DNA of 35,304 bases, taken from positions 1 through 35,304 of the IMG/VR virus record IMGVR_UViG_3300009128_000071; one strand, 5' to 3'. Below the pieces are notes generated by a model. It was not told the DNA's origin. It did not search any database and worked only from the letters and a program-made list of their open reading frames with translations. Of the stretch, positions 5,323 through 35,304 are shown one piece after another. Origin of the DNA: a virus. The position numbers and the translations under genes are program-made. Every line of letters starts with the position of its first letter. The first letter of the stretch is position 1.

Positions 5323-6597
5323 ATGAGCGACAAGGTCAAGGACAATCAAATATGGGCGGCGTTCGTCAAGTTCATTCGGGAGATGGGCGGCGAGCCCGAG
5401 GCGCCGGTGAAGAAGGAGGCCGACGACGATGACGGCGCGGAGAGGCTGGTCAGGACGTTCTTCTGCATGGGCTGTGAGTCGGCGGTCCTGTTCAAGGCGG
5501 CCGACGCCGGGTTCGACGCGGCCGACGTCGACCGAATGGAGTGCCCGGAATGCGCCGGGGTGATGAAGGCGTCGGACGGCGCGGACGGGGAGAGCATCCT
5601 GAAGCCGGCGCCCGACGAGACCGACAAGACGATCCGGTGGAGGATGAAGAACCCGGACCTGTTCAAGGAGGGCTCGTTCCGGACGATCACCCTGTCGAAG
5701 GACAAGGGCATCAAGTCGGTGGTCGGCCGCCTGAAGAAGGCGCCGAAGGGCTCGAGCCCGACCACGACCCACCTGCAGTCGTACGTCTTCGCCAAGGAGA
5801 AGGGCTGGACGGTCGACAAGGCGCGGGCTTGGATCAAGGGCCACAAGTCCCTGACCAAGGGCGCGCCCGAGGCGCAGAAGGCCGTCTGGGACGCCTACGT
5901 GGCCGACGTGGAGGAGCTCCACGGCGCGCCGAGCGAGCACTACCTCCACCTGGCGGGCGCCAACGACGAGGGCGACAGCCTCTGGTGCGTCACGGACCCG
6001 TGGGGCCGGAGGTACTACCTGTACGACGGGAGCAAGGCCGCGTCGATCGCTGTGCGGATGGACCGGGGGCGGTACCACGTGGAGACCCCTAACGCCTACC
6101 TCAAGGCCGAGGACCTGGCGAAGGCCGACGAGGCCGAGTTCGACCGGCTGCTCTGCGAGGCGCTCGTCCACGGCGCGGATCCCCACGCCGACCGCTTCGA
6201 GCGGGAGATCCAGGTCGTCTTCAAGGACGACGAGCAGCGCCTGGTGCTGGGCGTCGTGCTCGAGCCCGGGGTGGAGGACGCCGACGGAGACCTGTACACG
6301 CCGGCCGAGGTGGAGAAGGCGTGCCACCGGTTCAACCTCGCCTACTTCCACAAGGGCAGCGCGGCCACCGACCTGAAGCACGCGATCCCGGCGCCCGAGG
6401 GCGTGATCCCGGTAGAGAGCTACGTCGCACCCTCCGACCTGGTCATCAAGGGCCCGCTCGGCAAGCACAAGGTTCGGAAGGGGACCTGGCTGATGATGAT
6501 GCACGCCGACGACGACGACGTGTGGGACGGGATCAAGGGCGCGGAGTACACCGGGTTCTCGATCGAGGGCACGGGCCTGCGGACGCCGAGGTCCTAG
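5323..6597 (+). CDS. XkdF-like putative prohead protease with N-terminal zinc ribbon
   Basis: 424 aa. The C-terminal domain (about residues 285-420) has the XkdF-type phage serine protease pattern: LGVVLEPGVEDADGDLYTPAEVEKA, HKGSAATDLKHA, ESYVAPSDL, GTWLMMMH, IKGAEYTGFSIEG. The middle segment with HLQSYVFAKEKGWTVDKARAWI is common in these proteins. The N-terminus adds a zinc-ribbon-like C48-x2-C51 and C74-x2-C77. The enzyme would mature the prohead by cutting scaffold and capsid proteins. The scaffold-like gene downstream begins with the SLVPRAANRRTFLLTKS stretch often found joined or next to XkdF domains. Function is inferred from family; the catalytic triad was not mapped residue by residue. 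Confidence 0.75.
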   Translation: MSDKVKDNQIWAAFVKFIREMGGEPEAPVKKEADDDDGAERLVRTFFCMGCESAVLFKAADAGFDAADVDRMECPECAGVMKASDGADGESILKPAPDETDKTIRWRMKNPDLFKEGSFRTITLSKDKGIKSVVGRLKKAPKGSSPTTTHLQSYVFAKEKGWTVDKARAWIKGHKSLTKGAPEAQKAVWDAYVADVEELHGAPSEHYLHLAGANDEGDSLWCVTDPWGRRYYLYDGSKAASIAVRMDRGRYHVETPNAYLKAEDLAKADEAEFDRLLCEALVHGADPHADRFEREIQVVFKDDEQRLVLGVVLEPGVEDADGDLYTPAEVEKACHRFNLAYFHKGSAATDLKHAIPAPEGVIPVESYVAPSDLVIKGPLGKHKVRKGTWLMMMHADDDDVWDGIKGAEYTGFSIEGTGLRTPRS

Positions 6598-6878
6598 TGG
6601 CGCACCCGTCGAAGTCCGACCTCATCAAGGTGTACCTGGCCAAGATGATCGAGGACCACCGCCCGGAGATCGAGTCCGCGTTCGAGGCGGGCTGCTACCG
6701 GATGTCGGCCATGACGATCGTCCTTCGCTTCGACAAGAGCGGGCGCCCGGCCACGGGATCGTTCCGGGCCGACGTGGAGCACGACCTCAAGCGGGGCGTT
6801 CACGAGCACCGCAGGGAGGGCCCGTCGAAGGGCCCGTTCGACGGGTCGGCGGACGGAGGGGTTGACAAAAAAAGCTGA
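6597..6878 (+). CDS. Small hypothetical protein overlapping the protease stop
   Basis: 93 aa from GTG at 6597, which shares its first base with the protease stop (TAGTG), an overlap typical of translational coupling. The protein has a HPSKSDLIKVYLAKMIEDHRPEIE helix, then MTIVLRFDKSGRP, a beta strand-like stretch, and a charged tail. No known domain is recognised. The -35 of the promoter at 6862 lies inside its last codons, so this gene ends the upstream part of the head cluster. The start could also be an ATG further in; coupling favours the GTG. Confidence 0.6.
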   Translation: MAHPSKSDLIKVYLAKMIEDHRPEIESAFEAGCYRMSAMTIVLRFDKSGRPATGSFRADVEHDLKRGVHEHRREGPSKGPFDGSADGGVDKKS

Positions 6879-6897: not shown

Positions 6898-7052
6898 AGC
6901 TAATAAAAACCGCGCTGCGGTTTAAAGTCCCGTCGGGGGATCGGCGACAGTCCCCCCTCGGGCGAGACATTTCGGGCTCCAGCCGCCGGAGAAGATGTGT
7001 AGGCGGCCGATCAGGCAGGACTCCAGCCTCGCCGGATCGGTCGCCTTTTTTT
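6898..7052 (+). ncRNA. Candidate structured non-coding RNA between protease and scaffold genes
   Basis: The ~155-base segment between the promoter at 6862 and the terminator has no convincing open frame but dense pairing. Hairpin 1 is 6907-6913 with 6917-6923 (AAACCGC/GCGGTTT). Hairpin 2 is 6929-6932 with 6959-6962 and, inside a 2x2 internal loop, GGGGGA (6935-6940) with TCCCCC (6951-6956). Hairpin 3 is CTCC (6977-6980) with GGAG (6988-6991). Hairpin 4 is the terminator. It is not a tRNA: no acceptor or T-loop pattern fits. It could be a free small RNA, or a leader that regulates the scaffold gene 14 bases downstream. No known RNA family is recognised. Confidence 0.55.
7001..7052 (+). terminator. 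Intrinsic terminator (12-bp stem plus seven T)
   Basis: AGGCGGCCGATC (7001-7012) pairs with GATCGGTCGCCT (7035-7046) with one G-U pair, and seven T (7046-7052) follow at once. It is the only hairpin with a U-tract that I found in the window. It ends the candidate RNA and would also stop most upstream transcription before the scaffold and capsid genes unless antitermination or a leader switch acts. Confidence 0.85.
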
Positions 7053-8066: not shown

Positions 8067-9431
8067 ATGAACAACATCTTCACCTTTTCTCGACTGGCCG
8101 CCGCCGACCTGAGCGCCGGGCAATACCGAGGGCTGAAGATCGACAGCAACGGCAACTTCGCGCGAGCCGGCGCGGGGGAGCGTACGGTCGCCATCCAGCA
8201 GAACGAGCCGGTGCTCGGACAAGCCTGCGACGGGATGGCCCTCGGGATCACGAAGGCCGAGTACGGGGACGACGTGCTCGCCGGGAGGAACCTCACCACC
8301 GACGGCAACGGGAAGTTCGTCCACGCCGCGGGTGACGCGAACGTCGCCTGCGTGGCCCTCGAGGCCGGCGCCGACGGCGAGAACCACCTCGTCCTGGTGG
8401 CGACGATCACCCAGTTCGGTCTCGGGACCGGCGTGGTCACGACCGAGAACATCGCGGCCGACGCCATCGACGGGACGCTCATCGCCGACGACGCGGTCGA
8501 CAGCGAGCACTACACCGACGGCTCGATCGACACCGCGCACATCGCGGCCGACGCCATCGACGGGACGCTCATCGCCGACGACGCGGTCGACAGCGAACAC
8601 ATCGTCGCCGGGGCCATCGACACCGCGCACCTCGGAACCCTCTCGATCGACACCGCGCAGATCGCGGCCGACGCCATCGACGGGACGAAGATCGCCGACG
8701 ATAGCATCGACAGCGAGCATTACGTCGATGGTTCTATCGACCTGGCCCACCTGGCGGCCGACTGCGTGGACGGGACGAAGATCGCGGACGACTCGATCGA
8801 CAGCGAGCACTACGTCGATGCCAGCATCGACACGGCCCACATCGGTCTCCTGCAGATCACGACCGCGCTCCTGGCGGCCGACGCCGTGGACGGGACGAAG
8901 ATCGCGGACGACTCGATCGACAGCGAGCACTACGTCGACGGCAGCATCGACACGGCCCACATCGCGGCCGACGCGATCGATGGGACCTTGATCGCCGACG
9001 ACGCCCTCGACAGCGAGCATTACACGGACGGCTCCGTCGACGTGGCGCACCTCGCTCAATCGGCGACGCCCGTCGCCGTGCTCACCTTCCCGATCCCGGA
9101 CATGTCGGCAGTCGCGAACGGGGACCTCGTGACCAATTATCCGATGTCCGGAGAGTACGAGGTCGTCGGTCTCTACTGGATCTGTACGACCCCGATCACG
9201 ACCGCCGCGAAGCACGCGGAATTCAACGTCGAGATCAACGCCGTGAACTGCACGGGCGGCGTCCTGACGCTCGACGGGCAGTACTCGCTCGGCGGCGTCG
9301 TACAGGCGACGGAATTCACCGCCAACAACGTGGTCACGAACGGCGATACTCTCTCTATCGAGGTCGCGAACGTGACCTCCTTCGTCGAGGGCGCGGGCGT
9401 CCTGCAGCTTATTCTTATGCACAAGGACTAG
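8067..9431 (+). CDS. Head decoration protein fused to a decapeptide-repeat fibre and C-terminal beta domain
   Basis: 454 aa, with AGGAGG six bases before the ATG. Residues 1-125 (LSAGQYRGLKID, ERTVAIQQNEPVLGQACDG, AYxxx-type beta stretches ending ENHLVLV) resemble small phage decoration/DUF2190-like capsid-surface proteins. Residues 129-328 are exactly twenty 10-residue units, arranged as 30-residue supra-repeats of the kind IAADAIDGTL-IADDAVDSEH-YTDGSIDTAH. Residues 329-454 form a non-repeated, Thr/Asn/Val-rich beta domain that could be a trimeric knob. It lies directly before the major capsid gene. I infer a head fibre anchored by the decoration domain; a displaced tail fibre is the alternative. 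Confidence 0.65.
   Translation: MNNIFTFSRLAAADLSAGQYRGLKIDSNGNFARAGAGERTVAIQQNEPVLGQACDGMALGITKAEYGDDVLAGRNLTTDGNGKFVHAAGDANVACVALEAGADGENHLVLVATITQFGLGTGVVTTENIAADAIDGTLIADDAVDSEHYTDGSIDTAHIAADAIDGTLIADDAVDSEHIVAGAIDTAHLGTLSIDTAQIAADAIDGTKIADDSIDSEHYVDGSIDLAHLAADCVDGTKIADDSIDSEHYVDASIDTAHIGLLQITTALLAADAVDGTKIADDSIDSEHYVDGSIDTAHIAADAIDGTLIADDALDSEHYTDGSVDVAHLAQSATPVAVLTFPIPDMSAVANGDLVTNYPMSGEYEVVGLYWICTTPITTAAKHAEFNVEINAVNCTGGVLTLDGQYSLGGVVQATEFTANNVVTNGDTLSIEVANVTSFVEGAGVLQLILMHKD
8451..9050 (+). repeat. Twenty in-frame 30-bp (10-residue) coding repeats
   Basis: The 600-bp segment encodes 20 decapeptides with consensus x-(A/T/V)-(D)-(A/S/G)-(I/V/L)-D-(G/S/T)-x-x-x. Six 90-bp supra-units can be read, with two extra 10-residue units (LGTLSIDTAQ and IGLLQITTAL) between them. 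Several supra-units are nearly identical at DNA level (for example around 8455-8600, 8671-8720, 8885-8960), which points to recent duplication and makes length change by slippage or recombination likely. Confidence 0.9.
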
Positions 9432-20903: not shown

Positions 20904-21136
20904 ACGCGACGAACCTGGGCGCCGAGATCGTCGCCGCGATCAAGGGGACGATGGAGCTGACTGCGGCGCAGGAGGCCGAGGCCACCATCCTCTGGACGGC
21001 GGTGGCCGGGGCGATCATAACTCACGTTCAAACGAACGCGGTCGTCAGCACGACGACGACCGGGGCCGCGACGGCGGTCACGTCCGGCGGCAGCACCTCG
21101 CCGACGGTCGGGACCGGAACGGGGACGGTGGCATGA
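20894..21136 (+). CDS. Small baseplate/spike-tip-like protein
   Basis: 80 aa from the ATG at 20894, overlapping the previous gene by 10 bases. The sequence has a helix (LGAEIVAAIKGTMELTAAQEAEATILWTAVAGAIITHVQTNAVV) followed by a Thr/Gly-rich tail ending GTGTGTVA. Phages with gp138-like spikes often encode a similar short protein with an IxxHxQxNAxV motif just after the spike. Exact role unknown. Overlaps the next gene by 4 bases (ATGA). Confidence 0.6.
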   Translation: MAMNATNLGAEIVAAIKGTMELTAAQEAEATILWTAVAGAIITHVQTNAVVSTTTTGAATAVTSGGSTSPTVGTGTGTVA

Positions 21137-22548
21137 GCGGAGACCTGCAGCTCGTAGAGAGCGCGAAGACCTGGCAGCGGGCCGTGCCGCCGTCGCTCGA
21201 CTGGTCGCAGCTCGCGGCGTTCCCCGCGACGCTCGCGGCGCGGAGCTACTCTAACGCCCATTACCACGCCGGGCGCGGGCGCCTGTTCATCCTCCTCGGG
21301 TACCTCGACGGCGGGACGTTCACGAACGAGGTGATCGACGTCGACCTGGCGACCGAGGTGGCCGTCGCGCTCTCCCCGTCGGGTACCCCCCCCGCCGCCC
21401 GCTACGCGGCGATGTCGATCCTGGACGCGGCCCGCAACCGAGTCATCTCGTTCGGCGGCGTCGACGGCGGCGGCGCCGGCGACTACTACAACGACCTGCA
21501 CGCGCTCGCCCTCGAGGAGGGCGCCGAGGCGTGGAGCACCCTGGCCCCGGTCGGCGGCCCGCCCCCGCGCCGGGCGGGCGGCCTCTTCGTCCTCGACTCG
21601 ATCAACGATCGCGGAATTCTGATCGGCGGGTTCAACCTGGACACGGGCCACCTTATCGACGTGTGGGAGCTCGCCCTGTCTACCCTCACGTGGACCCAGC
21701 TCGCGCCCGGCGGCGTCGCGCCGTCGGCCCGGTACGAGATGGCCGGGATCTTCGACCCGCGCGACGGCGTGAACGGGCGAGCCGTCATCTTCGGGGGCGC
21801 CGCCGCGGGCGGGCCCCAGAACGACCTGGTGGAGCTCGACCTCACGGACGGGGCCGAGGCTTGGGCGACGCTCTCCCCTGGCGGGACGGCCCCGAACGTT
21901 AGGGCCGGCGCCCTGGCGGCCTACGACTCCCACCAGCTGGTGATGCTCCTGACCGGCGGCTTCGACTCCACGCCGGCGCTGGACACGTACTTCAACGACC
22001 TGCATAAGCTGACGCTCGTGGAAGGATCGGAGACGTGGAGCGAGTACTCGCCGACCTCCCAGCCGCCCGCGCGGCGGGCGCTGTGCGGGGACTACGACGC
22101 CGGACGCCGGCGCCTCACGATCTACGGCGGGTGGACCCTCGCCGGAACCATGCTCGACGACGCCTGGAAGTTCCAGCACGGGCCCTGGGTGGAGACCGTA
22201 TCCATACCGGAGGGCGACCTGGACCTGGACGATGACGACGACCTCCTAGTGACCAGCACCGACATCACGCTCGTGCGCCAACGGCTCCAGGTCGTTCTTC
22301 GGTGGTTCCGAGGAGAGTACTACCTCGACACCTCGAGGGGCGTCCCGTACTTCCAGGACGTGCACAAGAAGGCGCCGAACCTGGCGCTGGTCGACGCGAT
22401 CCTGCGCGACGCCGTGCTCGGCACGGAGGGCGTCGAGGAGCTCCAGTCGTTCTCGACGATGTACGACCAATCAACGAGAGAGTTCACCGTGACGTTGAAG
22501 GCGCTGACCGCCGACGGCGTCGTTGAGCTCGAGGAGACCGTACCGTGA
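21133..22548 (+). CDS. Kelch-type beta-propeller fused to a gp25-like baseplate wedge domain
   Basis: 471 aa. Residues ~30-355 contain six Kelch-like blades, each with an R-(x)n-GG core (for example SFGGVDGG, LIGGFN, IFGGAAAGG, IYGGW) followed by a W..L/P pattern. Residues ~365-471 (DDLLVTSTDITLVRQRLQVVLRWFRGEYYLDTSRGVPYFQDV ... NLALVDAILRDAVLGTEGVEELQSF) are a complete gp25/gpW-like wedge protein, normally ~110-130 aa on its own. It lies directly before baseplate J, the normal place for gp25, so the wedge function is retained. The propeller would be displayed at the baseplate rim and may bind the host surface. The stop overlaps the J start (GTGA). Confidence 0.85.
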   Translation: MSGDLQLVESAKTWQRAVPPSLDWSQLAAFPATLAARSYSNAHYHAGRGRLFILLGYLDGGTFTNEVIDVDLATEVAVALSPSGTPPAARYAAMSILDAARNRVISFGGVDGGGAGDYYNDLHALALEEGAEAWSTLAPVGGPPPRRAGGLFVLDSINDRGILIGGFNLDTGHLIDVWELALSTLTWTQLAPGGVAPSARYEMAGIFDPRDGVNGRAVIFGGAAAGGPQNDLVELDLTDGAEAWATLSPGGTAPNVRAGALAAYDSHQLVMLLTGGFDSTPALDTYFNDLHKLTLVEGSETWSEYSPTSQPPARRALCGDYDAGRRRLTIYGGWTLAGTMLDDAWKFQHGPWVETVSIPEGDLDLDDDDDLLVTSTDITLVRQRLQVVLRWFRGEYYLDTSRGVPYFQDVHKKAPNLALVDAILRDAVLGTEGVEELQSFSTMYDQSTREFTVTLKALTADGVVELEETVP

Positions 22549-25814: not shown

Positions 25815-25827
25815 GAATTCCCCGCAG

Positions 25828-25855
25828 CCCCCCCTTCCAGGAAGCAGGGGGGGGG
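25828..25855 (+). terminator. Possible late-cluster terminator hairpin (C7/G9 stem)
   Basis: Seven C (25828-25834) and nine G (25847-25855) flank TTCCAGGAAGCA, giving a very stable stem directly after the last tail gene. No T-run follows at once; an A7T5 tract (25879-25890) lies 24 bases on. It marks the boundary between the structural cluster and the control region. A U-tract-free terminator is the likeliest reading. Confidence 0.45.
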
Positions 25856-25920
25856 CACGCCCGCGCTCCTACTACTCCAAAAAAATTTTTCTACCGACAG
25901 CTGTTTACTCCTCCGGGGGT

Positions 25921-25950
25921 ATGGACAAAATAGGACATAATAGGATATAG
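25921..25950 (+). repeat. Three tandem decamers (TAGGAyATAA type) in the control region
   Basis: ATGGACAAAA, TAGGACATAA and TAGGATATAG follow each other with an exact 10-base period, close to one helix turn. They are AT-rich islands in GC-rich DNA downstream of an A7T5 tract. This arrangement suits a protein-binding array or a promoter (TGGACA at 25922 with a GATATAG -10-like stretch 17 bases on). A helix-turn-helix gene follows at 26327. Confidence 0.5.
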
Positions 25951-25955
25951 GAGAG

Positions 25956-25994
25956 TCCAGCGCGCACGACGCGCGCGGCGCGCGGCGCGCTGGA
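25956..25994 (+). promoter_or_regulatory. 5' leader hairpin that reaches the ribosome-binding site
   Basis: TCCAGCGCGC (25956-25965) pairs perfectly with GCGCGCTGGA (25985-25994), and the CG-rich loop can pair further. The right arm ends inside the GGAGG (25992-25996) that serves the ATG at 26004, so folding would hide part of the SD. This is a plausible translational switch. Confidence 0.5.
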
Positions 25995-26003
25995 GGCCGA
26001 CCG

Positions 26004-26326: not shown

Positions 26327-26590
26327 GTGGACAGGAACCAGGGAGAGGAGGCGCGGCTGAAGCTGACGAGGGGCGTGATCCAGGAGGCCCTCGCCGAGTA
26401 CCCGGACCCGCTCGACGTCGCCCAGGCCGCGACGATCGCGAACTACAAGCCGAAGACGATCCGGCGGCTGGTGAGCGAGGGCGTGATAGAGGCCATCCGG
26501 CCGGGGACGGCGGGAGGTCAGAGGCCTCCGATCCGGATCTCGCACGCCGCCCTCCTGGCCTGGCTCTTCCCCGACGAGCCGGAGGCCTAA
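26327..26590 (+). CDS. Helix-turn-helix DNA-binding protein (excisionase/HTH_17-like)
   Basis: 87 aa from GTG at 26327, which has a perfect AGGAGGT (26314-26320) at ideal spacing; the earlier ATG at 26309 overlaps the previous stop but has no SD. LDVAQAATIANYKPKTIRRLVSEGVIEAIRPGTAGGQRPPIRISHAALLAWL is a winged HTH of the excisionase/MerR-like type, with the recognition helix at KPKTIRRLV and the wing at RPGTAGGQRPP. It sits just after the decamer array and may be its binder. Excisionase action is unlikely because no integrase is seen. Confidence 0.75.
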   Translation: MDRNQGEEARLKLTRGVIQEALAEYPDPLDVAQAATIANYKPKTIRRLVSEGVIEAIRPGTAGGQRPPIRISHAALLAWLFPDEPEA

Positions 26591-32175: not shown

Positions 32176-33894
32176 ATGGCGAAGAAGAAGGCCGCCGGCG
32201 GGGACTGGCGGCGAGACATCGAGACTTTCATGGACGCCCTGTTCAGGGACGTGGACGGCGATCGCCAGGTCCTCGTCTGGACGCTCCCCAACAAGAGGTC
32301 CCACTGGGCCCCGTCCGCCGAAGCCGCGGCGAAGAAGGCCGCCGCGCTCCGCCCGAAGCACGACGTATACGTGGGCGTCGGGATCGCCCCGGCCGACTTC
32401 GGCGTCCCCAAGAAGGACCTGCACAAGCGGCGGTGCCCGTCCCACAAGATCGCGGGGATCTCCGGCATCGTCATCGACGTAGACGTGGAGGGGCCGGGGC
32501 ACAAGAAGAAGCGACTCCCGAAAACGTACAAGGAGGCCGAGCGGATCGTCGGCTGCCTCGGGCTCGAGCCCACGATGGTCGTCTCCTCCGGCGGCGGCAT
32601 CCACGCCTGGTGGCTGTTCAAGGAGCCGTGGTGGTTCGACGACGACGAGGAGCGGGCCCGAGCCGAGCGGTTGAGTCAACTGTGGACGGCCACGATCAAG
32701 CGCCGGGCGATGGAGGACCTCGGCGTCGAGATGGACAGCGTCTGGGAGCTGGCGCGCGTGATGCGCGTCCCGGGGACGATGAACCGCAAGAGCTCTCCTC
32801 CCACGCCGGCGTCGTTCCTCGAGGAGCCGAGCGAGGGCAAGCGCTGGCTGGTCAGCGACCTCGAGGACGCCATCCCGCCCGACGTGGTGGGAGACACGCC
32901 CGCCCCCGAGAAGTCTCGCGGTACGGGCGAGGAGGGCGCCGGCGACACCTTCACGCTGAGGGCCGGGGCCAACCCGCCGTTCCGGAAGTTCGACGTGTTC
33001 ATCAACAACAGCCCGAAGTTCAAGGGCACCTGGGAGAGGACGCGCAAGGACCTCAACGACACGTCGTCCTCGGGGTACGACATGAGCCTGGCCGTCCAGG
33101 CCGCCATGGTGGACTGGACCAACCAGGAGATCGTGGACCTGCTGGTCGCCTCCCACGAGAAGCACGGGGACGACAAGCACCACGAGCGGGTCGACTACTA
33201 CGCGATCACGCTCCGCCAGGCCCGGAACTACATCAAGAAGGATCGGTCGCTGGACCGGCTCTCGGAGCTGTCGAACACGGACGAGGTCGCCGGCTCCGAG
33301 GCCTCCTCCGAGCCCGCCGACCGGGGGGAGCTCCTGACCTGCCTGTCGGAGGTCCTCGGTATCGCGATCCACCGGATCGTCAAGTACACGAGCGACCCGC
33401 CCTCGTACCGCCTGGAGACGGCGCGCGGGGCGATCATGCTCGGCGGCGTGGCCGGGCTGATCGACCAGCGGGCGTTTCGCACCCACGTGGCGGCCGCCAC
33501 GGGGAAGTCCATCCCCAGGTACAAGACGCCGGCCTGGGCGATCATCGAGCAGCACCTCCTGGACGTCTGCGAGGAGGTCGAGGTCGGGGAGGAGGGGACG
33601 GACTTCGGGAGCGTCCGGGGCTGGCTGGCGGACTACCTGGAGGAGACGAGGCCGACCAAGGACGCCAACGAGGCCGGGAGCGCGCGGGCCCCGTTCGTCG
33701 ACGACGACGGCGTGGTCTACTTCTTCCTGGACTCCCTGCGGAAGTACGTCTGGATCAACCGGATGGACCGCCGGAGCTGCAAGGACCTGGCCAGCCTCCT
33801 GAGGCTGATCGGGTGCGCCCCGACTCGCCGACACTTCCAGATCGGGGGCTCGGCGACCACGCGCAGCGTGTGGCGGTTCGAGGTCGAGAAGTGA
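32176..33894 (+). CDS. Primase-polymerase (archaeo-eukaryotic primase superfamily)
   Basis: 572 aa from the ATG at 32176 after CGGAGGCG; upstream in-frame codons lie in the hairpin region. VIDVDVEG (residues ~100-107) is the metal-binding DxD motif. VVSSGGGIHAWWLFKEPW (the SGxGxH motif, ~135-150) and LARVMRVPGTMNRK are typical for phage/plasmid prim-pols. The C-terminal ~250 residues resemble the helical linker and winged domain of replication proteins, but no helicase Walker motif is present; the helicase is a separate gene downstream. It starts DNA synthesis at the phage origin. Confidence 0.85.
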   Translation: MAKKKAAGGDWRRDIETFMDALFRDVDGDRQVLVWTLPNKRSHWAPSAEAAAKKAAALRPKHDVYVGVGIAPADFGVPKKDLHKRRCPSHKIAGISGIVIDVDVEGPGHKKKRLPKTYKEAERIVGCLGLEPTMVVSSGGGIHAWWLFKEPWWFDDDEERARAERLSQLWTATIKRRAMEDLGVEMDSVWELARVMRVPGTMNRKSSPPTPASFLEEPSEGKRWLVSDLEDAIPPDVVGDTPAPEKSRGTGEEGAGDTFTLRAGANPPFRKFDVFINNSPKFKGTWERTRKDLNDTSSSGYDMSLAVQAAMVDWTNQEIVDLLVASHEKHGDDKHHERVDYYAITLRQARNYIKKDRSLDRLSELSNTDEVAGSEASSEPADRGELLTCLSEVLGIAIHRIVKYTSDPPSYRLETARGAIMLGGVAGLIDQRAFRTHVAAATGKSIPRYKTPAWAIIEQHLLDVCEEVEVGEEGTDFGSVRGWLADYLEETRPTKDANEAGSARAPFVDDDGVVYFFLDSLRKYVWINRMDRRSCKDLASLLRLIGCAPTRRHFQIGGSATTRSVWRFEVEK

Positions 33895-33908
33895 CGTTTT
33901 CGAGCAAT

Positions 33909-33931
33909 ACCCGTATATGGGGAGCGTTTTG
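33909..33931 (+). promoter_or_regulatory. Regulatory element B (CCCGTATATGGGG with GAGCGTTTT flank)
   Basis: ACCCGTATATGGGGAGCGTTTTG lies 15 bases after the primase stop. Its reverse complement matches element A over TTCGTTTC-N10-AACGCTCCC-YATATA-GGG with identical spacing (the TTCGTTTC block is at 33938-33945 on this strand as GAAACGAA). Same orientation as element C. Confidence 0.5.
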
Positions 33932-33957
33932 TTTTTTTGAAACGAATTTGAAAATGC

Positions 33958-34021
33958 GTTATCCAAGTTATCCGATCGCCCGTAACCATACGGAATCATT
34001 ACGAGAAAGTGCTTGATAACC
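33958..34021 (+). repeat. Origin-like module, copy 1
   Basis: A 64-bp unit that begins GTTATCCAAGTTATCC (two GTTATCC at a 9-base period) and ends TGATAACC, so its ends are inverted. Copy 2 starts exactly 77 bases later and matches it at 44 of 64 positions without gaps. GTTATCC resembles the core of a DnaA box (TTATCCACA) but lacks the ACA. The region is AT-rich and gene-free, next to the primase. Confidence 0.7.
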
Positions 34022-34034
34022 TGGGGGTTTCTAC

Positions 34035-34098
34035 GTTATCCTAATTATCCGCGCCCTCGTAAGGAGCTGTAATCACGATGGAAACATGCCTGATAACC
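34035..34098 (+). repeat. Origin-like module, copy 2
   Basis: The unit begins GTTATCCTAATTATCC and ends TGATAACC, with conserved CGTAA, AATCA and TGC(T/C)TGATAACC blocks relative to copy 1. It is followed by ATATTTATAACG. The start region of a small open frame (ATG 34078) lies inside it. Confidence 0.7.
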
Positions 34099-34191
34099 AT
34101 ATTTATAACGACGTCGTCGGCTGGTGCACACGGTCGCCTGTTCCCCGTTTCCGCCCCGTCGACCGCGCCCCTATATAGGGGGGCGTTTTGA
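34078..34191 (+). CDS. Possible 37-residue leader peptide coupled to the helicase gene
   Basis: ATG 34078 follows AAGGAG (34061-34066) by 11 bases. The frame reads METCLITIFITTSSAGAHGR and ends AFRGAF-like (..APLYRGAF) at TGA 34189-34191, which overlaps the helicase TTG start (TTGA). The overlap and SD suggest translation; the sequence has no domain. It crosses element C. A leader that controls helicase expression is one reading; a chance frame is the other. Confidence 0.4.
   Translation: METCLITIFITTSSAGAHGRLFPVSAPSTAPLYRGAF
34167..34190 (+). promoter_or_regulatory. Regulatory element C (perfect palindrome CCCCTATATAGGGG)
   Basis: A 14-bp perfect palindrome (34168-34181) followed by GGCGTTTTG, directly upstream of the helicase. 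It shares the core and the GCGTTTT flank with element B and, inverted, with element A. AGGGGGG also serves as the SD of the TTG start at 34188, so a protein bound here would block both transcription and start-up of the helicase. Confidence 0.55.
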
Positions 34192-35304
34192 GCGAGCGGG
34201 CCGGAGAGTACCGCGTGTTCGGGCCGCCCGGGACCGGAAAGACCACGTACCTCGGGGAGGTGATCGAGCGCACGGCCATGAAGTACGGGTCCGAGGCCGT
34301 GATGGCGTCGACCTTCACGAAGGCCGCCGCGCTCGAGCTCACCAAGAGCAACCTGCCGATCCCGCGCGACCAGGTCGGGACGCTCCACGCGCTGTGCTAC
34401 CGCATGCAGGGCCGGCCCGAGATCGCCGAGGTCCACGCCAAGGAGTGGAACGAGCTGCACCCCGCGCTGGCGCTCACGCCGAAGGGGAAGGCCAACGTGG
34501 ACGAGCCATTCGGGGACGAGACCGGGCAGACCCGAGGGGACGAGATCATGGCGGAGCTCCAGACCATGCGGGCGCAGATGAGGCCGAGGGAGCTGTGGCG
34601 CCCGACCGTCCAGGAGTTCGAGGGGAGGTGGACGGCGTGGAAGAACGAGAACGGGCTGATGGACTTCACCGACATGATCGAGATCACCCTACGGTACGGG
34701 CCCCACTACCCGCCCGGCGACGCCCGGATCGGGTTCTTCGACGAGGTCCAGGACTTCACGCCGGTGGAGCTGGCGCTCGTGCGCAGGTGGGGTGAGAACA
34801 TGGACTGGCTGATCCTGGCCGGGGACGATGACCAGTGTCAGCCTCCGGAGACGCTCGTAGAGACGACGCGCGGAGAACAGGAGCTTTACTTGCTCGATCC
34901 GGAGCGAGATCGGCTCGTCTGGTACGACCGGAAGCGAGCTCGAGTATCGGGGCAGAAAACTGGGAGCGCCTTCCGGAAGGCCTCGCGCCATTTTTCCGGG
35001 GAGCTCCTCCGGGTTACGACGGCGGACGGAAAAACGACGAGATGTACCCCGGAGCACCGGTGGCTAATACGCTGGACGAGCGCGGCTCACGCGGCGTACG
35101 CGGTTTATTTAATGCGCCGCGGCGATCGGTGGCGCGTCGGTCAGTGCGAGCTCTTTCGTAAGGGCGGAATTTTTCGACCGGCCGAACGGATGCGTCAGGA
35201 GGACGCGGAGAATCTCTGGATACTCTCGATAAAGAGGACGCGGAAGGCGGCGCTCGAGTGCGAGGCGAAGATCTCGAACTTTTATAACCTCCCGCAAGAT
35301 TGTT
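34188..35304 (+). CDS. UvrD/PcrA-like superfamily 1 helicase, interrupted by an intein, 3' end outside window
   Basis: Read from TTG 34188 (SD AGGGGGG; a stop lies upstream at 34176; GTG 34215 would start too close to Walker A). Helicase motifs: FGPPGTGKTT (11-20), ASTFTKAAALEL (Ia), GTLHALCYR, FFDEVQDFTPVEL (motif II, ~184-188), and ILAGDDDQ (motif III, G212-Q216). From C217 the sequence is an intein. The C-terminal helicase motifs IV-VI must lie past the window. It belongs to phage replication/recombination helicases. The gene uses GC-rich codons up to Q216. Confidence 0.85.
   Translation, partial: MSERAGEYRVFGPPGTGKTTYLGEVIERTAMKYGSEAVMASTFTKAAALELTKSNLPIPRDQVGTLHALCYRMQGRPEIAEVHAKEWNELHPALALTPKGKANVDEPFGDETGQTRGDEIMAELQTMRAQMRPRELWRPTVQEFEGRWTAWKNENGLMDFTDMIEITLRYGPHYPPGDARIGFFDEVQDFTPVELALVRRWGENMDWLILAGDDDQCQPPETLVETTRGEQELYLLDPERDRLVWYDRKRARVSGQKTGSAFRKASRHFSGELLRVTTADGKTTRCTPEHRWLIRWTSAAHAAYAVYLMRRGDRWRVGQCELFRKGGIFRPAERMRQEDAENLWILSIKRTRKAALECEAKISNFYNLPQDC
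34836..35304 (+). mobile_element. Intein inserted after GDDDQ of the helicase (incomplete at window end)
   Basis: The inserted part starts with Cys, followed by PPETLVETTRGE (block A-like). Block B-like RCTPEHRWLI has the Thr-x-x-His expected for splicing. After it comes AAYAVYLMRRGDRWRVGQCEL ... RQEDAENLWILSIKRTRKAALECEAKISNFYNLP, which does not look like a LAGLIDADG or HNH domain and could be a small GIY-YIG-like nuclease (VYL...WRVG and A-x2-E). Codons shift to AT-ending forms (TTA, ATA, CGA, TTT), unlike the host gene. The splicing C-terminus (HN then Cys/Ser/Thr) is not in the window. Confidence 0.7.

Follow-up and report, generated by a model that had tools for sequence, protein, structure and literature searches.

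The way in which phages with a primase-polymerase (PrimPol) select their replication start site has been outlined in very few systems. In the Sulfolobus plasmid pRN1, the origin is a stem-loop within the 166 bp downstream of the primase-polymerase gene, and a stem-loop origin has been proposed at a similar place in Bordetella phage BIP-1 (both according to excerpts of PMC4234260). The oriV of RSF1010 carries one ssi site per strand (ssiA/ssiB) for the primase RepB′ (excerpt of PMC4434180). The NrS-1 PrimPol reads the 8-nt template 5′-TTTGGTTA-3′, with its N-terminal fragment starting mainly at the first base upstream (excerpt of PMC8718748), and the two copies of TTTGGTTA in the NrS-1 genome, one per strand, were suggested as the origin (excerpt of PMC7102993).

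The DNA analysed here, referred to as the window, represents an IMG/VR virus contig over its full length (35,304 bp); a gene is truncated at either end, and the overall GC content is 67%. Judging from its baseplate J, baseplate wedge and tail fibre families, it is a phage with a contractile tail. A baseplate wedge domain is fused to a Kelch beta-propeller at 21133-22548, and positions 5-247, at the left end of the record, code for the C-terminal portion of a methyltransferase resembling CmoA (carboxy-SAM synthase; NCBIfam TIGR00740, E 7.7e-13, below the cut-off). The gene set at the right end comprises an SNF2 helicase, a phrog_23155 protein (termed p288), the PrimPol and a UvrD helicase. The last two genes are separated by a noncoding gap of 293 bp (33895-34187; longest ATG/GTG ORF, 30 codons) with a GC content of 0.49 and a minimum of 0.38 per 100 bp, the lowest in the record. 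Elsewhere in the record, GC falls below 0.48 in one stretch only, 25853-25974. A second A+T-rich noncoding gap (25815-26003, GC down to 0.44), which includes a repeat-like AATAGGACATAATAGGATATAGGA stretch, separates the structural from the replication genes. Based on its sequence and on the comparisons given below, we propose, with a probability of roughly 0.7, that the gap at 33895-34187 is the replication origin of the phage, of the iteron type and served by a phage-coded initiator. It contains two related modules, the first of which starts 64 nt past the PrimPol stop. The features are as follows:

32176-33894, plus strand: PrimPol (AEP-fold primase-polymerase), 572 aa from the inferred start (mechanical ORF from 32077); phrog_2478, E 1.3e-14
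33910-33938, plus strand: CCCGTATATGGGG palindrome and T tract (T tract 33932-33938), a sequence pattern
33958-34021, plus strand: module 1, GTTATCC-AA-GTTATCC, 40-bp spacer, TGATAACC
33958-33964, plus strand: iteron 1 of module 1 (GTTATCC)
33967-33973, plus strand: iteron 2 of module 1 (GTTATCC), 9 bp from iteron 1
33983-33990, minus strand: TATGGTTA, one mismatch from the NrS-1 site TTTGGTTA
34013-34042, plus strand: sigma-70-like hexamers TTGATA-18-TATCCT at the module junction, a consensus match only
34014-34021, minus strand: inverted iteron of module 1 (GGTTATCA)
34035-34098, plus strand: module 2, GTTATCC-TA-ATTATCC, 40-bp spacer, TGATAACC
34035-34041, plus strand: iteron 1 of module 2 (GTTATCC)
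34044-34050, plus strand: iteron 2 of module 2 (ATTATCC)
34091-34098, minus strand: inverted iteron of module 2 (GGTTATCA)
34094-34101, minus strand: second copy of TATGGTTA, overlapping the inverted iteron of module 2
34168-34181, no strand assigned: palindrome CCCCTATATAGGGG, which overlaps the probable ribosome-binding site of the helicase
34188-35304, plus strand: UvrD-type helicase; Pfam UvrD-helicase, E 2.9e-10; phrog_1967

The palindrome and T tract at 33910-33938 constitute a terminator-like end of the PrimPol gene, and the T tract is possibly an easily melted tract; some relatives also have a T tract or a similar palindrome 3′ of PrimPol. Palindromes of the form CCC-TATATA-GGG occur three times in the window, all in gaps, at 1036-1049 (before terminase), 33910-33922 (after PrimPol) and 34168-34181 (before the helicase), and palindromes resembling them are also located 3′ of PrimPol in the relatives L134, L142 and L175. 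The helicase ORF matches the intein-bearing SPO1 gp34.33 over 98% of its length. Its sequence suggests that the UvrD extein likely extends to about 34838 and is followed, after DDQ (DDQ/C), by an intein at 34839-35304 that runs off the record. In the relative L002, the helicase continues past the DDQ position as DDDQLLYNFAGA. In L060 and L061, the helicase frame is seemingly broken around 6937-7000 by additional bases within the sequence coding for Walker A, which could be an error or a frameshift.

The locus resembles pRN1 and BIP-1 in that the module lies a short distance 3′ of an AEP primase gene, after a terminator-like palindrome, and in that a winged helix, predicted in the window, forms the C-terminus of the protein; in excerpts of PMC4234260, pRN1 and BIP-1 differ from the window in having a stem-loop of roughly 100 nt, no iterons and an SF3 helicase on the same protein. 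The window, in contrast, combines short iterons in direct and inverted orientation with a UvrD helicase encoded separately, and a large stem-loop of the pRN1 type was not found in it (gap fold z -0.87; spacers z -1.0 to 0.6). As in RSF1010, the window PrimPol has a modelled AEP fold of the RepB′ kind, and its opposed iterons are comparable to one priming site per strand; RSF1010 differs in its separate iteron binder RepC and its ssi hairpins. No ssi-type hairpin per strand was found in the window (spacer hairpin z -1.0, not significant). Spacer hairpins with z of about -2 or lower are present in L142, L115, L118, L155 and L062; only some relatives have one, and the spacer hairpin was therefore rejected as a general feature.

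The ability of GTTATC to pair with GATAAC raises the alternative that the two related units belong to a structured RNA (a leader, attenuator or small RNA), which we consider very improbable. For unit 1, the folded minus strand is more stable than most shuffles (z -2.93), but for unit 2 it reaches a z of only -1.14, and the plus strand is ordinary (z -0.16 and 0.57 for the units, with the gap value given above). No Rfam match was obtained even at E 5, and the relatives keep direct copies, which RNA pairing would not need. A tRNA reading of the module was rejected because the tRNA search was negative.

The origin reading can also be compared with NrS-1, to which the window is similar in having a phage PrimPol together with a candidate short template site, and the relative L142 carries TTTGGCTA in tandem. 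An exact TTTGGTTA is absent from the window, and both copies of TATGGTTA are on the minus strand, so the NrS-1 analogy is only partial. The NrS-1 polymerase has its own helicase-like domain, unlike the window PrimPol, and no NrS-1 structure was present among the profile or fold matches listed.

Analysis of the gap reproduced the two 64-bp units of the preliminary description: 33958-34021 and 34035-34098 are identical at 44 of 64 positions, ungapped, at an offset of 77 bp. The best ungapped self-match score is 25, and none of 400 dinucleotide shuffles of 33895-34187 scored as high (mean 8.9, maximum 14); shuffling of the module core 1000 times gave a maximum score of 12. The 77-bp period described earlier holds, but its equation with about seven helix turns is loose (7.3 turns at 10.5 bp per turn), and the account of an A+T-rich, gene-poor spacer between PrimPol and helicase agrees with the GC minimum and the short ORFs of the gap. 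RTTATCC occurs seven times in the window (1.9 expected), the module copies being four of the seven, and GTTATC/GATAAC, counted on both strands, has five sites in the 293-bp gap versus one in the other 35,011 bp. The gap has the marks of an iteron origin, with at least two direct short repeats in noncoding DNA and an A+T-rich tract alongside. GC skew shows no turn at the module; the end of the record is only 1.3 kb further, so GC skew cannot place an origin there.

The core of the DnaA box is TTATCCACA, and the resemblance of TTATCC to it would fit an origin that depends on host DnaA. The probability of such an origin appears close to negligible, as the gap contains no DnaA box (TTWTNCACA) with zero or one mismatch, the only one in the record is located at 9415, and the iterons of the relatives are unlike DnaA boxes. 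This is in agreement with the earlier remark that GTTATCC is not a full box, none being present inside the module at 0 or 1 mismatch.

The TTGATA-18-TATCCT hexamers are one of only two sigma-70-like sites in 11 kb, both inside the gap, and form a possible promoter for the helicase gene. Since the module comes after a terminator-like palindrome, the helicase may depend on a promoter of its own. These features, together with direct and inverted short sites, which are also typical of operators, would fit a duplicated operator-promoter, in which a phage repressor or activator controlling transcription of the helicase and later genes would bind the iterons, and these would have no role in replication. 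We regard this as unlikely: A+T content by itself raises the number of promoter-like matches, and the slot follows PrimPol, with a layout that recurs while its sequence drifts, as expected of an initiator co-evolving with its sites. Origins often overlap promoters, so the operator and origin readings are not exclusive.

Single-sequence searches of IMG/VR with the PrimPol, SNF2 and terminase proteins returned no relative, and the helicase query identified one distant relative, L002, which also carries a PrimPol. The PrimPol alignment A1 gave a single weak match against GTDB genomes, and DNA similarity searches with the gap against phages and plasmids gave chance-level matches only (E 0.3 to 3). 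The pattern TTATCC-N3-TTATCC-N35-65-TGATAAC was found in 14 IMG/VR contigs, none of which had the pair repeated as in the window and one of which had a 9-bp low-complexity array; these matches were judged to be due to chance. A two-member PrimPol alignment led to 48 loci, and an eight-member alignment led to 80 loci. PrimPol identity is at most 45%, and the gene order SNF2-p288-PrimPol-UvrD is widespread among these distant relatives. The gap between PrimPol and UvrD measures 100-850 bp in 32 relatives; in 21 others, the two genes overlap or are less than 70 bp apart, so the site cannot be the origin of the whole group. In the window, the repeats adjoin putative initiator and replication genes, and this arrangement is conserved in relatives, although 21 have no gap there. 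In L058, the PrimPol 3′ end is directly repeated over 60 nt (97%; 6554-6613 and 6785-6844) on the two sides of a 171-bp A+T-rich gap, which looks as if an insertion had happened and the gene end had been rebuilt.

A common layout is apparent after PrimPol in many of the relatives: direct copies, two or three in number and spaced by 7-11 bp (mostly 8-9), are followed about 40-70 bp on by an inverted copy; the direct iterons of the relatives are often located 50-75 nt past the PrimPol stop. The sequences of the iterons differ, as in the following loci:

L142: tandem TTTGGCTA, followed by two copies in inverse orientation
L154: GGGTTACA direct at offsets 60 and 69 and inverted at 115, followed by three direct copies
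L155: GGGGCACA direct at 64 and 72, with the inverted copy at 131
L120: TTACTT/A direct at 48, 56 and 64, with inverted copies at 111 and 122
L165: GGAACGG, twelve copies
L134: TGACAATTA, six copies
L118, L122, L123 and L128: iterons of the TTAAATG-, GGTTAAA- or TTAAAC- type

In sixteen tabulated relatives, the iteron copies are concentrated in the gap, where at most 0.24 would be expected from the rest of the locus; the patterns were picked from the gaps themselves, so this tabulation is descriptive and is not a test. About half of the suitably sized gaps have no significant iterons. The motif (A/T)(A/T)TGG(T/C)TA occurs 12 times in post-PrimPol gaps (2.0 in shuffles, maximum 7) versus 11 times in control gaps (7.5 in shuffles), from which the window piece had been removed; it was chosen after looking at the gaps and is a lead only. 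The recurrence of iterons in the same slot and with the same layout in distant relatives supports the candidate origin of the preliminary description, in which a phage-coded initiator would act on iterons of its own. The search for the module in related phages suggested there had a divided outcome, as the layout recurs but the letters GTTATCC are found in this phage only.

Iteron content was scored as the top 8-mer with up to one mismatch on both strands, with 25 shuffles per gap, and 20 loci (duplicates, fused or cut forms) and gaps longer than 450 bp were left out. Nine of 22 post-PrimPol gaps exceeded all 25 of their shuffles, versus 7 of 194 other gaps (Fisher p 1.6e-6); in this uncollapsed comparison, a spurious minus-strand ORF moved the window gap out of the targets and a 124-bp piece into the controls, and L126 (z 3.7), which is located inside the PrimPol-helicase interval, was counted among the controls. 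When the loci were collapsed to lineages at a PrimPol identity of 50%, with the window added and its fragment removed from the controls, the proportions were 6/19 and 6/193 (p 1.5e-4).

The layout itself was tested with exact 6-mers, requiring a direct pair spaced by 7-12 bp and, 35-70 bp further on, an inverted copy; the spacing limits were fixed after the window and several relatives had been seen, and the window piece and all controls from PrimPol-helicase intervals were removed. It was present in 8 of 47 loci and 6 of 35 lineages, as compared with a mean of 0.2 lineages and a maximum of 2 in 60 rounds of shuffling and with 2 of 181 controls. A variant in which a third direct copy replaces the inverted one was present in 11/47 loci and 6/35 lineages (shuffles 0.3; controls 1/181). 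For an out-of-sample set, a helicase-alignment scan gave 80 loci, 10 of them with a PrimPol match; five of these ten were new contigs (L177-L181) with a match of at least 300 residues. With unchanged settings, three of the five matched the layout, a number reached in none of 500 shuffle rounds, the shuffles of each contig matching in 2-3 of 500. The three matches were:

L178: TTGTCA at 63 and 72, then 140, the direct pair being placed relative to the PrimPol stop like that of the window
L179: CTCTCA at 88 and 95, then 147
L180: TATGAC at 203 and 212, then 270

L177 did not pass, its arrangement being similar by eye only, and neither did L181. Across 67 whole loci (six duplicates omitted), the 300 nt following PrimPol contained 10 layout matches (0.498 per kb), versus 47 elsewhere (0.068 per kb); eight of these 47 are located in the 35 kb of the window outside the gap, so the layout test has no force for a single locus. 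Tandem short repeats with inverted partners are also seen at partition, packaging and recombination sites, and the units could in principle be a passive duplication, but we consider this group of explanations highly unlikely. No ParA or integrase was recognized among the window ORFs read by eye, the terminase genes are at least 31 kb away, and the position beside replication genes is kept across lineages.

For a gel shift, the preliminary description had named the HTH protein near 26327 or the primase-polymerase. Nothing in our analysis points to the HTH protein as initiator, whereas the PrimPol has a predicted winged-helix C-terminus. An AF2 model of the window PrimPol, calculated with an alignment of 46 sequences, has a mean pLDDT of 91.9; the protein set left out 14 loci with fused or cut PrimPols as well as L135 (short ORF) and L121, L127 and L153 (early frame breaks). 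The top fold match of the model is the S-2L PrimPol (6zp9; Foldseek E 1.9e-7, Z 18.0). RepB′ of RSF1010 matches with Z 13.8 and an rmsd of 16.3 over two domains (3h20), and its catalytic domain with Z 13.7 and an rmsd of 4.0 (3h25). Among the 46 PrimPols, Pfam RepB_primase_C was found in 10 and RepB_primase in 4, with neither in the window PrimPol, and an A2 profile search of PDB sequences gave chance matches only (best, troponin C, E 0.028). A separate model of the 200 C-terminal residues has a pLDDT of 94.5, and the matches listed for its C-terminal domain are largely winged-helix or similar DNA-binding domains, including TcpK on oriT DNA (Z 7.2), SaPIBov1 Rep (8tch, Z 6.3) and Cdc6/ORC (Z 6.1). 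Foldseek with the C-terminal model returned no match at E 0.001 or better, and the middling winged-helix scores (Z at most 7.2) can reflect a mere common fold. A repeat-binding, winged-helix initiator encoded by a mobile element would be similar to those of the SaPI Rep and phage P4 alpha origins (for P4 alpha, excerpts of PMC4234260). The window PrimPol differs from P4 alpha, which is a Toprim primase in the same excerpts, and from SaPI Rep, which is a helicase.

We give the PrimPol slightly less than an even chance of being the iteron binder. In the proposed mechanism, PrimPol or a partner protein would bind the iterons, perhaps via the C-terminal winged helix, the A+T-rich DNA would then open, and the UvrD helicase encoded next door would be loaded. 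Because the iterons point towards each other on the two strands, PrimPol would make primers on both, and divergent leading-strand synthesis would follow. A wider reading, which we put forward tentatively and hold to be rather more doubtful, is that a large group of SNF2-PrimPol-UvrD phages shares an origin of fixed layout and drifting letters and that PrimPol itself reads the iterons. Such an origin would consist of two or three direct iterons, mostly 8-9 bp apart and about 50-75 nt past the PrimPol stop, with opposed copies 40-70 bp on. PrimPol might read them either by binding the duplex via the winged helix or by using the opened iterons as primer templates on both strands in an NrS-1-like manner.

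Full-text searches of open-licence papers listed no recognizable description of an iteron origin for this group of PrimPol phages. If the wider reading is true, the origin and the replicase would form a self-contained, orthogonal pair in each lineage. A predicted origin with a recognizable layout in many lineages would provide ready-made origin-initiator pairs, which bear on whether one protein can locate an origin, prime and copy, and the layout may help in finding origins in uncultured phages.
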